This document shows positions 3,282-63,316 of a stretch of 64,000 nt of DNA, in pieces. Below the pieces are notes generated by a model, which was given only the letters and a program-made list of their open reading frames with translations, was not told the origin of the DNA and did no database searches. Source of the DNA: a virus; the IMG/VR virus record IMGVR_UViG_3300023184_009648, positions 1 to 64,000 of that record, one strand, 5' to 3'. Both the position numbers and the translations under genes were made by a program. The first letter of the stretch is position 1. The number at the start of each line of letters is the position of its first letter.

Positions 3282-5036
3282 ATGAAGAGAAAACTGATCA
3301 GCTTCGATGCATTTAAGAAAATCGAAGAAAGTTCACTTACAAAAACACAACAAGAATTGATCAAGGCTGAAGAAGTGCTTGCAAGAACACTGGGAGTCGA
3401 TGAACTCAAGCTGTTCTCGTTCGGCGAATCTGATGTCACATATCAGACGACGGACGGCAACTTCATTCATGCCGTTTATACTATTGATAACAATTCTGTT
3501 ATACTCGAAAACATAGAATTGCTCGTTATTGAAGAAGAAAGCGAGCGTTCTTCCGCAAAGAAAATTCTCAACGATCTCGTTGACAGCATTCTTGAAAACA
3601 AGGTTGCTGAAGCCGATTTGTTGTTTGAGAATTATTTCAATCTTCCTTGCATTCGTCGCACTATAACGAATGAAGGTGCAAAAGCTTCTCCTCTTAAAGG
3701 TCACAAACAAGATGCGGCTCTTATTGCAAAGCGCACAGCGTCACGCAATAGAACCTTATCTCTTATGAGCTCTACCTTGCGTAAATCCAAGCTTGGTGGC
3801 AAAAAGAAGAAGCCTTTTAAACTTTTCTTCAAGAAAATGAGCGAAAAGAAGATGAAGGATTGTGCTACCGTAGCTGAAAATGTTTTAGGTTACATCAATT
3901 TTCAACAATATGGCCCAATAATCAATGAATCTGCTGTTCGAACGGATAATCAAGGTTCTGTGACAGCTGTTCGCATTCCAACTGAATTAAAGCGCAATGA
4001 ATCTAAAGTTTTAAGCTTGGGCTATAAGACCATGGACACCGAATTAAAGGTTCTTCGTGGTAAGTTGAAGCACATTAACGAAGATCAAACTTTCGTTAAA
4101 GCTATGGCTGATCTCAAGCGTTACAATAACATTTCAGACAATAGGGCTTTGGAAGAAACACTTGAATCTATTGTTTCTCGTTGGCCTGATCTTCTCTACA
4201 TTAGCGAAGCAGAATTGTCAGATCAAATTGCTGCTGCTTTAGAAACCGCAAATGTAAAGAATTATGATGACCGCACATGTGCTTTTATGGCTGAAGCCAT
4301 TTTACGCACTGCACATCATGCTTACACTGATCGTGTTCGCAAGATTGGCGTTCTTGGTGGTGCTAAATCTGATATTACCGCTGAGTGCAAAACTTGTGAA
4401 GACGCTTATAAGTCTTTTTCCTCTGTTTCTGAAAGTTTGTTTAATCAACTTGACGAAAGCGAAGAGAACGAACTTCATATTTTTGCCGATCTTTACAACG
4501 CCTTGAACGAAGTTCATCGTGCTGCTGTTGAAGCAAACGATGAGGCAACCCGAATTGAAGTCTCTGACTTTATGAAGGAATGTGCTGCTATCGTAAATCG
4601 CAAAACCGAAATCAACATGGAATTGGCTGAATCTATTGCCGATTACCTTGCAAATATTTTTGAAGGCGATGAAGGCTCACATTGGGATACTGGCGTTGAA
4701 GTTGACGCTATTGGAAACCACAGCATGACTAAGTGGAACGCTAAGCAATCTGCTGTTGCTAGCAATAACACTGGCATGTGGAAAAGCCCTGCTCCCGTAA
4801 GCAACGGCAAGAGTTATTCTGATGGTCTTGAAAATGAAGCTGGTCTCGGAAATATTGCCTCGGATTCTACTTGGCCCGATGTCAAGAATCCCTATCTTCT
4901 CCAAAGTCAAATGCCAAAAATGAAAGAAAAGAATGTGGCTGATGAGGATGGATTAGGCGGAACCGATGGAAATACTTGGCCTAACCTTAGCAATCCCATG
5001 GCTCTCAAGCCTGTGATGCCCAAACCTGTTGTTTAA
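3282..5036 (+). CDS. Putative large prohead core / internal head protein
   Basis: A 584-residue protein between portal and prohead protease, the position where T4-like phages often carry small core proteins (gp67, gp68). The chosen ATG has AGGGAGC upstream and gives the N-terminus MKRKLISFDAFKKIEES, which fits the capsid-targeting-like signal (IEE site). A longer in-frame start at 3198 lacks a ribosome site. The middle is Lys-rich (LGGKKKKPFKLFFKKMSEKK, near residues 170-190). The tail has two similar segments ending in TWPDVKNPYLL and TWPNLSNPMAL. A role in the core or as an internal protein is inferred from position and signal. No enzymatic motif was recognised. Confidence 0.75.
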   Translation: MKRKLISFDAFKKIEESSLTKTQQELIKAEEVLARTLGVDELKLFSFGESDVTYQTTDGNFIHAVYTIDNNSVILENIELLVIEEESERSSAKKILNDLVDSILENKVAEADLLFENYFNLPCIRRTITNEGAKASPLKGHKQDAALIAKRTASRNRTLSLMSSTLRKSKLGGKKKKPFKLFFKKMSEKKMKDCATVAENVLGYINFQQYGPIINESAVRTDNQGSVTAVRIPTELKRNESKVLSLGYKTMDTELKVLRGKLKHINEDQTFVKAMADLKRYNNISDNRALEETLESIVSRWPDLLYISEAELSDQIAAALETANVKNYDDRTCAFMAEAILRTAHHAYTDRVRKIGVLGGAKSDITAECKTCEDAYKSFSSVSESLFNQLDESEENELHIFADLYNALNEVHRAAVEANDEATRIEVSDFMKECAAIVNRKTEINMELAESIADYLANIFEGDEGSHWDTGVEVDAIGNHSMTKWNAKQSAVASNNTGMWKSPAPVSNGKSYSDGLENEAGLGNIASDSTWPDVKNPYLLQSQMPKMKEKNVADEDGLGGTDGNTWPNLSNPMALKPVMPKPVV

Positions 5037-53879: not shown

Positions 53880-56249
53880 ATGGCGATTCTAAAAGGGTTT
53901 CCCCCCTCTAACACAATAAGCCCCAGTGTTAGAATCACTGAAAAAGACCTAAGCTTCATCGCTCCAGACCAATCCTTCCATAGGGCTGGTTTGATCGGCT
54001 TTGCTTCTAAGGGTCCTGTAAACTTACCGACTTCTATTAGCACAAGTCGTCAACTTCATACCATCTTTGGCAATCCTCATCCTGATTCAGGCGACCCTTT
54101 CCTTCTTTATGCCGCTGATCAGTATCTTTTGGTTGCTAGCGAATTGTATGTTGTTCGTGTTGCTGACATCGATCCTGTTAGCGATGAACAAGCCACAACA
54201 GCTACTGTTGATGTACCTACAGCAGGTACTTTAATTGAGATTGAATCTGCAACTGCTGGACCTTATACATTTGATGATGATTCATTCTTCCGTTGGAAGT
54301 TAAATGGATCTCTTTCCACAAAGACTCTTGTGATTCTTGCTGGAACTTATGATGTTTCTGAAGTTGTTGATGGACTTAACTCCCAAATAGACTTTGAAAA
54401 CGATGGCATTCAGTTTTATCTTACCGATGAAAACGACGATAATAGTCCTATTGGCGTTCGCACTCTTTGGGCTTATGGACCAGACTCTTCACTAGAAATG
54501 ATTTCTGTTCAGAACTCAATTTATGGTGGATTAGTTTCTGGAGATCCTATTCGTGACAACCCTACAGGTCTTGGAACGGATATGACTGGTGCTGAAGTTA
54601 CAGGCTCTTTGACAAAATATCCCAACAATGGATATCAAGTAGCTGGCCAATATGATTTATCCGCTTTAAGTGACCTGAACCTAGAAATCGTTATTGACGG
54701 CACTGATAATGTACTCATCGATCAAGTTGTTCAAACAATTACTATCGATGCAGCTGATCAAAATATCGCTACAATCGTTGCTGCAATCAATGCTCAACGC
54801 ACAGAAGAGGCTGGAACTCTTCCGGGTGGTTGGGAAGCCATGGTTGATGGCGACAGCTTAAAATTCATGACAAAGAGTTATGGTGCTGACGCTCGTTTAC
54901 GCATTAAGCCAACAAGCACTGCCACAGACATTTTTGGTCTTTCTACCACAACTAAAGTTGGGGTGACTACTGAAGGCGTGTCTGGAGATGTAGGCATTGA
55001 AACATTTGGTTTAGTTAATGGAGGTCCTAATAACTCTGGCCTTCTTACATTTACAATTAACGCTGACTCACCCGGTATTGATGGCAACTTGACCCAAGTT
55101 GTCATTAAAAACAACATTTATGATAGGTACTTTAATGTTGAAGTATATAACAATTCAATTCAAGTTGAAGCTTGGGGTGGTCTTACAAAGGATTCTGCCA
55201 GTCGCTTCTATGTTGAAACCTATCTTGCTCTAGTGTCGGATTATGTTCGTGTAATCGACAACACTACCGAACTTGCAGGTCCTCTTGATGGCACCTATTC
55301 CTTGTCTGGTGGATCTGATGGTATTCCCGCCGATCCTGATCAACAAGATGTGCTCCTCATGGGCAGCCCTGTTGGTTTTACTGGCATCTATACCTTAAGC
55401 GAACCAGAACAAGTTGACATCGACTTGATCGCAGTTCCCGGACATTCCAGCACTGCTGTTGTACAAGAGCTTCTTGCATTCTGCCGTGATTATCGTCAAG
55501 ATTGCTTGGCAATTATTGATGCTCCTTTCGGCCTAACCGTAAAAGAAGTTGTAGATTGGCAAAATGGAACACATCCATTGAACAATGTACGCTTCGATTC
55601 CGATTTCGGTGCTCTTTACTGGCCTTGGGTCAAAATTTATGACTCATTTAACAAGGTTGATGTTTGGTGTCCTCCTAGCGGTTCCATCATGGCAACCATT
55701 GCTCGTAGCGACTTCCTTGGTGCACCTTGGTTCGCTCCTGCAGGTTTGACTCGTGGACTCGTTCCAAATGTGACCGATGTTTATAATCGTCCTACTTTGG
55801 AAGAGCGTGACTTAATGTATGGCAATCGCAACTGTGTAAATCCTATTGTGCAGTTCACAGACAGTCAAGGGTTTGTGGTGTTTGGTCAAAAGACTCTCCA
55901 ACGCCGTCCAACCGCTTTGGACAGAGTGAATGTTCGACGCTTGATGTTCTACATCGAGAAAAAGATTCGCACCTCTAGCCGTGTTCTCTTGTTCGATCCA
56001 AATGATGATGCCTTCCGCAGAACATTTACCCGTATTGCAGAAGAAATCCTTCGTGAAGTTCGTGTGGGTCGTGGTCTAAATGACTACATTATTCAAGCTG
56101 ATACCACTTTGAATACTCCCGATGTGATCGACCGCAACGAGTTCCGTGCAAGAATTGGCGTACAACCCACTCGTGCAGCTGAGTTCATGTTCATCGAGTT
56201 CTCGATCCACAGAACTGGCTCTTTTACTGAAAACGCTGAAACCTTCTAA
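53880..56249 (+). CDS. 18: Tail sheath protein (T4 gp18-like)
   Basis: A 789-residue contractile sheath subunit. The start FPPSNTISPSVRITEKDLSF, the RAGLIGFASKGPVN segment, the C-terminal FVVFGQKTLQRRPTALDRVN and RRLMFYIEKKIR, and the final AAEFMFIEFSIHRTGSF are diagnostic. Inserted beta domains in the middle (about 100-400) make it larger than T4 gp18. It is followed at 23 bases by the tube gene. Confidence 0.95.
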   Translation: MAILKGFPPSNTISPSVRITEKDLSFIAPDQSFHRAGLIGFASKGPVNLPTSISTSRQLHTIFGNPHPDSGDPFLLYAADQYLLVASELYVVRVADIDPVSDEQATTATVDVPTAGTLIEIESATAGPYTFDDDSFFRWKLNGSLSTKTLVILAGTYDVSEVVDGLNSQIDFENDGIQFYLTDENDDNSPIGVRTLWAYGPDSSLEMISVQNSIYGGLVSGDPIRDNPTGLGTDMTGAEVTGSLTKYPNNGYQVAGQYDLSALSDLNLEIVIDGTDNVLIDQVVQTITIDAADQNIATIVAAINAQRTEEAGTLPGGWEAMVDGDSLKFMTKSYGADARLRIKPTSTATDIFGLSTTTKVGVTTEGVSGDVGIETFGLVNGGPNNSGLLTFTINADSPGIDGNLTQVVIKNNIYDRYFNVEVYNNSIQVEAWGGLTKDSASRFYVETYLALVSDYVRVIDNTTELAGPLDGTYSLSGGSDGIPADPDQQDVLLMGSPVGFTGIYTLSEPEQVDIDLIAVPGHSSTAVVQELLAFCRDYRQDCLAIIDAPFGLTVKEVVDWQNGTHPLNNVRFDSDFGALYWPWVKIYDSFNKVDVWCPPSGSIMATIARSDFLGAPWFAPAGLTRGLVPNVTDVYNRPTLEERDLMYGNRNCVNPIVQFTDSQGFVVFGQKTLQRRPTALDRVNVRRLMFYIEKKIRTSSRVLLFDPNDDAFRRTFTRIAEEILREVRVGRGLNDYIIQADTTLNTPDVIDRNEFRARIGVQPTRAAEFMFIEFSIHRTGSFTENAETF

Positions 56250-56272: not shown

Positions 56273-56917
56273 ATGGACATGGGACTAGGACAACTGGGCA
56301 ATGACGCCTTAGTTTTTAAAAGAAAATATCGCTGGACACTGCAGTTGAGCCCCAACTGCGGTGGTACCATTCCCGAAGCTTTCGTAAAGGTTGCGGCTCG
56401 CCCCAGCCTAACGATTGATGAGCAGGAAATCAACTACTTGCATGGCAAGATGTGGATTCCCGGCAAAGGCACTTGGGAAACAATGTCGGTAACTTATTAT
56501 GATATAGGCAATGCTGGCCCCGGCATGACTGCCTTGTTCAGTTGGTTGGCTTCTGTGTATCAATTCACAAATCCAACCACATTGTATCAAGCTTCCACCT
56601 CTGCTGGCTATGCTTGCACAGGCGTTCTCACCATGTATGATGGTGTTGGAGCCGCTATGGAAACTTGGACAATGCGTAAAATGTGGCCAACTGCTGTTAA
56701 TTTTGGCGAACTAGATTATAGCAACACTGAACCTGCCACAATTGATCTTACTCTGCGTTATAGCGAAGTACAGTACACTAGTCTTTGCGGTGGCGTTCAG
56801 ATCAATCCTTGCCATACTGGCTGCTCTGCTCCTAGCACAAATGGTCAGCAACAACGCAGCAATAGTGGTTCAACTGGCACTCAAGTTGTTACTGGCGGTG
56901 GATATCCAGTTATATAA
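56273..56917 (+). CDS. 19: Tail tube protein (T4 gp19-like)
   Basis: A 214-residue tube subunit. KRKYRWTLQLSPNCGG, IDEQEINYLHGKMWIPGKG, VLTMYDGVGAAMETWTMRKM and TIDLTLRYSEVQY are conserved in the family. The C-terminal 40 residues are Cys/Ser/Gln-rich and probably disordered. A paralogue follows after a strong hairpin. Confidence 0.92.
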   Translation: MDMGLGQLGNDALVFKRKYRWTLQLSPNCGGTIPEAFVKVAARPSLTIDEQEINYLHGKMWIPGKGTWETMSVTYYDIGNAGPGMTALFSWLASVYQFTNPTTLYQASTSAGYACTGVLTMYDGVGAAMETWTMRKMWPTAVNFGELDYSNTEPATIDLTLRYSEVQYTSLCGGVQINPCHTGCSAPSTNGQQQRSNSGSTGTQVVTGGGYPVI

Positions 56918-56950
56918 AATCTATTTTTTGGATTTATATTACTAATATAT

Positions 56951-56993
56951 AAGAAACAGACCTTGTACATAATACAAGGTCTGTTTCTTTTTA
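56951..56993 (+). terminator. Strong hairpin between tube gene and its paralogue
   Basis: A perfect 17-base stem (56951-56967 with 56973-56989) around a five-base loop, then a short T-run directly followed by the AAGGAGG of the next gene. It may limit read-through and so lower expression of the paralogue. Confidence 0.85.
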
Positions 56994-57005
56994 AGGAGGT
57001 TATAT

Positions 57006-57638
57006 ATGGGAATTGATATGGGATTTGGCTTTAATATAGCCGACACAACCACTGTTTTTATGAGAAAACATCGTTGGTTGTTTAAAATTCCAGAAATCAG
57101 TGCAGAAGGCGTTGATGCACTTCCACCTTTTAAAGGAGCAAGACCTTCTTTAAGCTTTAAAGAATTAGAAGCCAATCATCTTACAGAAACAATATATTTT
57201 CCCGGACGAGCCGATTGGAAGCCAATTCCTTTAACTCTTTACGAACTCAAAAGAGCACAAGGTAGCGGTCATAATCCAATTTGGAAATGGATAAAAGAAT
57301 ATTATGATCCTAAAAATGAATCAAAAATAAAACCATCAGCAGAAGGTTTTAAAAAACCACAAGCAATTCTTGAGCTTTATGATGGTATAGGAAATGCTTG
57401 TGAAACTTGGATTTTTGAAACTATATGGTTACAAAGTATAGAATTTGGAGATCTTGACATGGGCAATGCAGATATTATTACCTGCGATTTAACACTTAGG
57501 TTTGATCGTGCTTATTTGCAAGAAGAAGAATTAAAACCTGCTGTCAATAATCCATTAGGAGGAGGAGGAGGAGGAGAAGCAGGAGCAGTTGCCGCAGGAA
57601 TTGCTGGAGGGATTTTTAGAAGTGGAGGAATTTTTTAA
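57006..57638 (+). CDS. Second tail-tube-like protein
   Basis: A 210-residue paralogue of the tube protein. The same blocks occur in order: MRKHRWLFKIPEISAE, FKELEANHLTETIYFPGR, LELYDGIGNACETWIFETIW and ITCDLTLRFDRAY. The tail is Gly-rich. In T4 gp54, a gp19 relative, starts the tube at the baseplate; this product may do that. Placement behind a strong terminator fits a low-copy protein. Confidence 0.8.
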   Translation: MGIDMGFGFNIADTTTVFMRKHRWLFKIPEISAEGVDALPPFKGARPSLSFKELEANHLTETIYFPGRADWKPIPLTLYELKRAQGSGHNPIWKWIKEYYDPKNESKIKPSAEGFKKPQAILELYDGIGNACETWIFETIWLQSIEFGDLDMGNADIITCDLTLRFDRAYLQEEELKPAVNNPLGGGGGGEAGAVAAGIAGGIFRSGGIF

Positions 57639-61223: not shown

Positions 61224-62384
61224 ATGGCTGATGATAATTTCCGTGTAAGAAAACCCGGTCAAGATGTTGGAAACACCAACCCCGATACTTTGGCTCAAGG
61301 TGAAACAGTTCGTGCTCAAGTTAACGAAGGTTCTACTCCACAATTTTCCGAAGGTGGATCACCCAGTGGAACTTTTCCCATGACTGGTCAGGTTCCTCCT
61401 GCATTTCAACAAGCTTTAAATGCAGCCCGTGCAGCAAGTGATCCCAATTTTCAACCACAACAACCTAAACAAGGTTTTGGGCAAATGAATCCTAGCTCCC
61501 AAGTAAATCCCAATGCTCAAATGAGCGCAAGTGGAATTGGACAATCTCCTGCCTTTACTAACACTCCTCAAAATCTAAGTTCCTCTGGACATTTACGAGA
61601 ACTGTTGGAAACTTTAAAGGGCAACAATGCCACTTATGAAGAGATCCAATTGCCTTCTAAGGGTCGATTTTACAATGGTGAAGACGGACCTGCAGATGGA
61701 GTTGTGGCCATTAGGCCTATGACCGGCGAAGAAGAACAAATTTTGGCTACGCCTCGTTTTGTCCGCAAAGGACAAGCAATCAATATGATTTTTCAAAAAT
61801 GTCTTAGGGAAAATTATCGCCCAGATTCTCTTCTCACTGTAGATAGAACTTATTTGCTTATTTACCTTCGTGGTATTAGTTACAGCACTAATTATGATGT
61901 AGAAATCAAATGCCCAGAGTGTGAAAAGAAATTTAGCACTAGCATCGATTTAAGTTCGCTTTATGTCGAATCTTGTCCTGATGACTATGGTCCTGTGCTT
62001 CAAGATGTTTTACCAACTACCAAGCTGCCTTTCCGCTATAAACTTTCTACCGGCAAGGACGAACAAGATATTCAAGATCATCGTGATCGTCGAATCAAGG
62101 CTTTTGGAGATGCATCGGCTGATGATACACTTCTTTACCGCACCGCAGTAATGTTAGTTGATATTGATGGCATCAATAACAAAAATGAAATTCAAATTCT
62201 GCTCAAGAGTTTGCCAATTAACGATGTGGCCTATATTCGCAACTGCATTACTGAACCTCCTTTTGGAGTTGATACGAATATAGAAATTGTCTGCCCAAGT
62301 TGTTTACAGGAGTTCGAAATGGATTTGCCACTTGAAGCAAATTTTTTCTTCCCTCGGCGGAAGAAGGGCAAGACCCAAGCTTAG
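61224..62384 (+). CDS. 26: Baseplate hub assembly protein (T4 gp26-like), zero-frame product
   Basis: A 386-residue protein with AAGGAG before the ATG. The N-terminal 130 residues are Gln/Pro/Ser-rich and disordered. The body has EEIQLPSKGRFYNGEDGP, VVAIRPMTGEEEQILATPRF and TVDRTYLLIYLRGISYSTNY, then two zinc pairs (CPECEKKF, CPSCLQEF), the pattern of the T4 gp26 baseplate family. It ends RRKKGKTQA. Near the end is a canonical -1 slippery heptamer that would create a longer product. Confidence 0.82.
   Translation: MADDNFRVRKPGQDVGNTNPDTLAQGETVRAQVNEGSTPQFSEGGSPSGTFPMTGQVPPAFQQALNAARAASDPNFQPQQPKQGFGQMNPSSQVNPNAQMSASGIGQSPAFTNTPQNLSSSGHLRELLETLKGNNATYEEIQLPSKGRFYNGEDGPADGVVAIRPMTGEEEQILATPRFVRKGQAINMIFQKCLRENYRPDSLLTVDRTYLLIYLRGISYSTNYDVEIKCPECEKKFSTSIDLSSLYVESCPDDYGPVLQDVLPTTKLPFRYKLSTGKDEQDIQDHRDRRIKAFGDASADDTLLYRTAVMLVDIDGINNKNEIQILLKSLPINDVAYIRNCITEPPFGVDTNIEIVCPSCLQEFEMDLPLEANFFFPRRKKGKTQA
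62339..62345 (+). promoter_or_regulatory. Candidate -1 ribosomal frameshift site
   Basis: The heptamer A AAT TTT lies in frame with the gp26-like gene. Eight bases downstream TCGGCG (62354-62359) can pair with CGCCGA (62401-62406), and GGAAGAAG (62359-62366) with CTTCTTCC (62416-62423), giving a possible pseudoknot. A simpler hairpin TTCTTCC/GGAAGAA (62346-62365) competes. Confidence 0.6.
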
Positions 62385-62572
62385 CGCTTTGGACATCTCT
62401 CGCCGAAGAAATTTTCTTCTTCCAATATCACATGGGGCTAGAAATGTCTGGCTCCATGAGACTGCCAATTAGGATGAGACGCTGGTTAATCGATAGATTT
62501 ATTCAGCAAAAAGAAAACGAAAACAAAGCAATGGAAGCTGAGCAACGAAAAGCCAAATCAAGGTCTAGATAA
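62345..62572 (+). CDS. Frameshift extension of the gp26-like protein
   Basis: In the -1 frame the codons after the slip site stay open for 75 residues to TAA at 62570, with LWTSLAEEIFFFQYHMGLEM and LPIRMRRWLIDRFIQQKENE. The pattern (EEI, then Y-H, then LP and R-RWL) resembles domains fused by frameshift in tail assembly chaperones. A fused product would be about 449 residues. An internal ATG at 62434 could alternatively yield a separate 46-residue protein, but it has no ribosome site. Confidence 0.6.
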   Translation, partial: FLPSAEEGQDPSLALWTSLAEEIFFFQYHMGLEMSGSMRLPIRMRRWLIDRFIQQKENENKAMEAEQRKAKSRSR

Positions 62573-62575
62573 TCT

Positions 62576-63316
62576 ATGGTAAAAGAAAGAACGCAAAATC
62601 CGACTTGTGGCGACACCATCAATTTAAGGCTGTTTACTTATAACAGCAATAATAAAAGAGATGTACAGTCGATTAGTGATGTAAAAATTTACTTCATTGA
62701 TGAATCTCTCAGAACTACTCACAATCCTGAGGGATTGCATTTGATGCAAACTATAGATGGAACTGAAATAATTAAAGATGGCACAGGCCAATATAGAGTT
62801 CCACTTTATCTTGATTCAAATCTTTACAAGATTGGCACATACAGAGATGTATGGAGTGTAGTTTTTGAGGATGGAGAATGCCCTAGTGCATCCATTCACA
62901 ACAACTTTCAAATATATAGTGACTTGTGGTTTACTACTCCAACACCACCAATTTATGACTTCAAATTTGACTTTCGCCCCAACCGTATCAGGAAGGGCAC
63001 TAAGCGATATATACTAATCAGTGTTACTCCCAATGTTCCACGAGGGGCTGATATCTACCCTTATTATGAATCCCTAACCGTTGTTTCTGAGCTTAGAGTG
63101 TCTATGGAATTAGCGTGCGGGGATTGTGTGCCTGCTGAAGCCGATTTGCGTGTTGTAGTAGATAGGCAACTCGTGGAATATAGGGAAAAAAGTTATGGTT
63201 ATTTCTATTTAGACACAACTCTTTATGACGAAGGCATTTATAACATCTGGTTCGAAGTAGCCTTTGGAGAAAGCGTTTTTGTTTCAGAAAAGAACGCTTT
63301 GCAAATTTTCAGCTAA
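62576..63316 (+). CDS. Virion-type structural protein
   Basis: A 246-residue, beta-rich protein starting four bases after the frameshift-extension stop. Two similar halves are visible: each has a strand-rich domain with Y-I-LY-D (VPLYLDSNLYKIGTYRDVWS and FYLDTTLYDEGIYNIWFEV). RPNRIRKGTKRYILISVTPN lies between them. Probably baseplate or fibre-associated. No exact family recalled. Confidence 0.65.
   Translation: MVKERTQNPTCGDTINLRLFTYNSNNKRDVQSISDVKIYFIDESLRTTHNPEGLHLMQTIDGTEIIKDGTGQYRVPLYLDSNLYKIGTYRDVWSVVFEDGECPSASIHNNFQIYSDLWFTTPTPPIYDFKFDFRPNRIRKGTKRYILISVTPNVPRGADIYPYYESLTVVSELRVSMELACGDCVPAEADLRVVVDRQLVEYREKSYGYFYLDTTLYDEGIYNIWFEVAFGESVFVSEKNALQIFS

Follow-up and report, generated by a model that had tools for sequence, protein, structure and literature searches.

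A programmed -1 frameshift at the end of a gp26-type gene was strongly supported by the comparison of related sequences, as described here for a stretch of viral DNA comprising positions 1 to 64,000 of the IMG/VR record IMGVR_UViG_3300023184_009648 (64,000 nucleotides in full; hereafter the window). We read this gene as a T4-type tail assembly chaperone produced in a short and a long form by means of a -1 slip on the heptamer T TTT TTC, and give this reading a probability of about 0.9. The preliminary description of the locus had proposed a canonical -1 signal at A AAT TTT within a baseplate gene; an in-frame slippery heptamer was borne out, but the conserved site was T TTT TTC and not A AAT TTT, and the arrangement most likely represents frameshifting in a tail assembly chaperone gene rather than a baseplate novelty. 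The features of the window that are relevant here were as follows.

61224-62384, + strand: gp26-type gene in the zero frame, 386 aa, predicted short form (TAC-N-like); PF12322, phrog_150 and AlphaFold2 core model
62342-62348, + strand: slippery heptamer T TTT TTC, putative conserved -1 shift site; 63/63 intact clade sequences
62339-62345, + strand: overlapping heptamer A AAT TTT, as first proposed; present in frame, lost in 12/63 clade sequences
62348-62572, + strand: extension in the -1 frame (74 codons, then TAA), putative TAC-C-like tail; open frame and codon-position differences
62382-62384, + strand: zero-frame stop TAG; read from the sequence
62432-62434, + strand: earliest ATG in the -1 frame, without conservation as a start; position varies across 34 representatives
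53880-56249, + strand: tail sheath gene (context); phrog_23, E 3e-78
56273-56917 and 57006-57638, + strand: two tandem tail tube-type genes (context); phrog_4542, E 3.5e-26 and 2.9e-19

The 3' end of the gp26-type gene reads ...GCA AAT TTT TTC TTC CCT..., and A AAT TTT indeed lies in frame with the gene, as had been pointed out. The -1 frame is open from just 5' of the T run to the TAA at 62570-62572; its openness and its end close to the next gene had been described correctly. The extension comprises 74 codons, with three bases between its stop and the next ATG (62576). A shift at either of the two heptamers would give the same junction, N-F-F-L-P, and thereby the same fusion protein, with a predicted length of 449 aa. 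Most ribosomes would stop at 62382 and release the 386-residue short form. On a minority, tandem re-pairing of two Phe tRNAs at T TTT TTC would move the reading back by one base, and translation would continue through the 74 codons of the -1 frame to yield a 449-residue long form having a largely helical C-terminal tail. That the slippage occurs on the ribosome, that it involves a minority of the ribosomes, and that the products act as chaperones, are what we infer. A Pfam search with the extension gave no match above cut-off, and a 63-aa phage family lacking an assigned function, phrog_20255, matched positions 62339-62569 with an E-value of 4.7e-4; the members of that family may be annotated fragments of such extensions. 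For the gene that follows the extension (62576-63316, 246 aa), the Pfam and PHROG searches gave no match.

We scanned IMG/VR for relatives and obtained 64 loci, of which one was set aside because its contig ended ahead of the site (L052) and another because its gp26 frame was broken in several places (L065). The remaining 62, together with the window, made up 63 intact sequences, from which 34 representatives having at most 90% DNA identity over 500 bases were selected. T TTT TTC was found in frame in 63/63 intact sequences, each with an open -1 frame that extended 179-197 bases beyond the zero-frame stop, and A AAT TTT was kept in 51/63; the conservation that the preliminary description had proposed as a check therefore applied to the -1 frame and to the later heptamer, but only partly to the one it had named. 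The two codons of the site were TTT in 34/34 and TTC in 34/34 representatives, and the codon preceding it was AAT in 31, AGT in two and GGT in one (encoding N, S or G), with T as third base in 34/34. As a control, an invariant Phe at codon -9 was encoded by TTC in 17 and by TTT in 17 representatives, and for invariant Leu, Pro and Ser residues close by the codons varied freely among synonyms. Since the wobble bases were fixed at the site only, with the Phe control evenly split, the heptamer must be kept beyond what chance would give. Pairwise differences in the -1 frame past the stop were 0.356, 0.216 and 0.563 at codon positions 1, 2 and 3, respectively (34 representatives), which is a protein-coding pattern and shows that the extension evolves as protein. 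The first ATG of the -1 frame was located 11-36 codons after the slip and moved between the 34 representatives, so that a start of its own is not conserved for the extension within this clade, and no homologue having such a start together with ribosome site in place of the heptamer, the case said to speak against a shift, was seen there.

A second sample was formed by relatives of cyanophage type, with 160 loci in IMG/VR. One of these ended before the site, leaving 159 intact loci and 88 representatives. All 159 carried T TTT TT[CT] in frame (158 with C and one with T), and the -1 frame was open for at least 40 codons in 156 of them, while in the other three it ran on until the contig stopped. 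The codon before the T run encoded S, D, A, N or G and had T as its third base in 88/88 representatives, as compared to 3244/4771 such codons in the background of the same genes. The run itself comprised six T in 87 of the 88 representatives and seven in one.

These data also bear upon other explanations of the arrangement. In a metagenomic contig, a broken frame might be put down to faulty sequencing or to decay of the gene, but this notion is refuted by the relatives, with the same arrangement recurring in 62 other contigs and 18 phage records. That the shift would instead take place at A AAT TTT, which fits the X XXY YYZ pattern in frame and is present in 51/63 sequences, is very unlikely, considering that this heptamer is lost in 12/63 sequences that retain both the extension and T TTT TTC, and that in relatives beyond the clade T TTT TT[CT] is retained even though different codons (AGT, TCT, GAT or GCT) precede the T run. 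RNA polymerase could also slip on the T run, thereby changing the frame in the mRNA and not on the ribosome; the run of six T, or seven in the one exceptional cyanophage representative, would allow this, and either route would give the same fusion. Six T is however a short run for polymerase slippage, and the run is held in the phase suited for tandem tRNA slippage, even if homology alone could fix that phase. We consider polymerase slippage improbable.

The extension could furthermore be made as a separate small protein, from an internal start or through reinitiation downstream of the zero-frame stop, without any fusion. An ATG is present at 62432 in the window, Cygsa01 has a TAATG, and in the cyanophage types the first ATG of the -1 frame is found three codons past the slip in 60/88 representatives and six codons past it in 19/88. 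Reinitiation is therefore conceivable in the cyanophages, since 79/88 have an ATG within six codons of the slip. Moreover, phage S-SCSM1 (L078, about 4185-4200) has, compared with its relatives, an insertion of 11 bases, placed after the slip site and ahead of the extension, that would break a -1 fusion but spares the ATG and the open reading frame started by it. Against this stands that the first ATG in the clade of the window, at 11 to 36 codons in, is not conserved, whereby most internal starts would lose conserved residues, and that reinitiation would have no need for fixed wobble bases in T TTT TTC. Production as a separate protein is thus quite unlikely, and we favor ribosomal slippage on T TTT TTC.

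A stem beginning eight bases after the heptamer, possibly forming a pseudoknot, had also been suggested. Folding of the window sequence just 3' of the site gave z-scores of -0.64 to +0.92, with no supported stem, and RNAalifold, applied to 34 sequences, predicted no consensus pairing within 50 or 70 bases 3' of the site, so the suggestion was not upheld. A 3' stem-loop or pseudoknot is not needed in every bacterial -1 frameshift.

With regards to the nature of the protein, its residues 138-374 matched PF12322 (T4_baseplate; E 9.2e-19, 68.4 bits against a curated cut-off of 24.5) and the 386-aa protein also matched phrog_150 (baseplate hub; E 4.4e-21), with the N-terminal region being outside any family match. 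Several observations nevertheless point to a chaperone rather than to a baseplate part. As judged from the sequence, a pair of short and long forms that share their N-terminal part would arise through a frameshift at the 3' end of the gene. In phages LIS04 and immuto the gp26-type gene sits between the tube and tape measure genes, and in SP-15 it is flanked by the tube gene and by a large gene annotated 'putative tail protein'; in long-tailed phages the chaperone gene has its place between those for tube and tape measure. No tape measure gene was recognized among the larger open reading frames scanned in the 86 kb record that includes the window. In one record or more (MH165274), gp26 already bears the name 'tape measure protein assembly chaperone'. 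T4 gp51 is required yet absent from the particle, according to a passage of PMC3004832.

An AlphaFold2 model of the core of the window protein reached a pLDDT of 83. No credible sequence relatives were found in the PDB, and Foldseek searches of the PDB with the core and gp51 models gave no E-value below 0.001. In a fold comparison with 491 chains, where a Z-score of 8 was regarded as a convincing match, the best and second best chains were 2OB9 (Z 5.8, 98 aligned residues, 6.2 A) and 3KLU (Z 5.6, 89 aligned residues, 3.9 A), both weak at Z <8. These structures, of the HK97 protein and of YqbN respectively, are both called tail assembly chaperones in a passage of PMC9603447. The aligned residues of the model differed, being 14-223 with 2OB9 and 1-98 with 3KLU, and given this together with Z-scores under 8 we take the matches as support but not as proof. 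With the gp51 model there was no chaperone among the matches listed, the best being C1QBP at Z 4.9. Going by the lambda pair gpG/gpGT, the role of the short form would be to coat the tape measure protein and that of the rare long form to bring in tube subunits, and both would leave before the tail is completed. The parallel with the chaperone genes of long-tailed phages drawn in the preliminary description is thus probably one of function, since the gene is better read as a chaperone than as the baseplate part it had been taken for.

We also analyzed 30 annotated phage records across the family, picked from hit lists and thereby not a random sample. Of these, 18 had a -1 extension behind a canonical site, T TTT TTC or T TTT TTT (LR756511, Atu_ph07, PAC2, PBECO4, RaK2, DSL-LC02, Bakedbeans, XacN1, Vibrio 2.275, SCTP-2, CM1, GAP32, Phosso, P-SSM7, pf16, Atu_ph04, Aeh1 and X1), while two had a -1 extension after a non-canonical ATT TTC (Cygsa01 and GG32). 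The extension was in the +1 frame in seven records (GXN1, SP-15, Mel-JY01, LR756508, LIS04, immuto and S-SCSM1, the last with the 11-base insertion that would break a -1 fusion) and three had two genes (T4, Aeromonas 31 and RB43). Further scans of IMG/VR added few loci, namely 10 with T4 gp51 as query, three with PBECO4 and one with SP-15.

In two clades, both starred in the tree, a homologous extension was thus located in the +1 frame, one comprising immuto, Mel-JY01 and LR756508 and the other SP-15, LIS04 and GXN1. For the immuto clade IMG/VR yielded 100 loci (L272-L371), three of which ended before the stop, with 97 being counted. TGG CC[TA] was present near the end of the gene in 95 of the 97, preceded by TTT in 56, CTT in 35 and CTA in four, such that TTT or CTT accounted for 91/95 and YTT TGG CCT GA was a nearly fixed site among the immuto relatives. 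In 92 loci the +1 frame stayed open for 40 codons or more beyond the stop, and in three more it ended with the contig. Judged from these codons, a YTT in the P-site could slip onto TTT before TGG, giving a shift of +1 or -2, and the site resembles the +1 site of bacterial prfB, which is CTT TGA. In a literature search that did not extend to the text of Vladimirov et al. 2022 we found no report of a +1 frame extension in this family. In two loci of the clade, L363 and L367, the extension appeared as a -1 frame open reading frame with an early ATG of its own, so these two may have lost the frameshift.

In T4 the same two forms would be made from two genes, 26 for the short and 51 for the long form. 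Both gp26 and gp51 of T4 matched PF12322 (E 8.8e-64 and 3.9e-52), the match of gp51 stopping at residue 201, and the gp51 tail beyond that residue matched the cyanophage extensions in hhalign with 97.3% probability and an E-value of 1.8e-11 (one comparison), as compared to at most 6.7% in 100 column-shuffled controls. Since both proteins belong to PF12322 and the gp51 tail matches the extensions, the two T4 genes resemble the short and the long form made separately. T4 gp26/gp51 thus share the family with the window gene, with gp51 having the extension in frame, but differ in being two genes without a frameshift. Direct hhalign comparison of the extension from the clade of the window gave no match with either the gp51 tails (0.5%) or the cyanophage extensions (0.3%). 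The same extension gave 95.7% with the SP-15 group (shuffled at most 23.1%) and 88.8% with the immuto group, and those two groups gave 75.9% and 92.9%, respectively, with the jumbo group; any link between the extension of the window's clade and the gp51 tails or cyanophage extensions would accordingly be through other groups only, as far as sequence comparison can indicate. In a tree of 35 rows the gp26 and gp51 rows of T4 type joined beside Aeh1, with support of 83/93 that was under the starred level, and Aeh1 still has its -1 site, unlike the two-gene T4. The simplest reading is that duplication replaced slippage in T4. On the whole we lean towards a single chaperone family in which the route to the long form changed more than once, with -1 slippage on T TTT TTY, +1 shifts in two clades and two genes in T4. 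If so, the family would present a naturally occurring set of interchangeable recoding routes to a single protein ratio.

The annotation of gp51 can also be corrected. Cyanophage 'gp51' is given as only about 20% of normal length in a passage of PMC3037559, where gp51 is also called missing in Aeh1. The annotated gp51 of P-SSM7 (L267, 2801-2896) and of S-SCSM1 (L078, 4210-4374) are pieces of the gp26 extension taken from an internal ATG, and in Aeromonas phage Aeh1 (L270, 3754 onward) T TTT TTC is followed by an unannotated gp51 counterpart in the -1 frame. Cyanophage 'gp51' is the -1 frame extension of gp26.

The preliminary description had known of no earlier account of frameshifting at gp26, but it is already in print for T4-like phages. 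Vladimirov, Gautam and Davidson 2022 (Virology 566:9-15) reportedly described frameshifted short and long chaperone forms in several T4-like groups and separate genes 26 and 51 in T4, which would be the same gene family and the same conclusion as here. A passage of PMC12846349 (2025) cites that study with regard to -1 slippage on poly-T in the chaperone genes of T4-like phages, and it stands in the reference list of PMC9603447. With T4-like chaperone frameshifting thus in print, the frameshift of the window is a further example and not a new kind. A passage of PMC5009743 (2016) has the G-T frameshift conserved in long-tailed phages 'except T4', a point that Vladimirov et al. reportedly addressed; our results, from an independent and large sample, support that this supposed exception is not general among T4-type phages. 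The lambda gpG/gpGT pair (Xu, Hendrix and Duda 2004, via a passage of PMC5009743) is likewise a frameshifted chaperone pair, but with a different slippery site and, as far as the searches show, of a different protein family, the window protein matching PF12322 with Cys pairs. In Vandenendeviridae and Andersonviridae the short-form chaperone gene ends in a conserved -1 shift that has a poly-T motif, GTTTTT, according to a passage of PMC12846349; these are other phage families, likened to the window gene by description only. Upstream in the window, the tandem tube-type genes at 56273-57638 (phrog_4542) suggest a duplicated tube protein.
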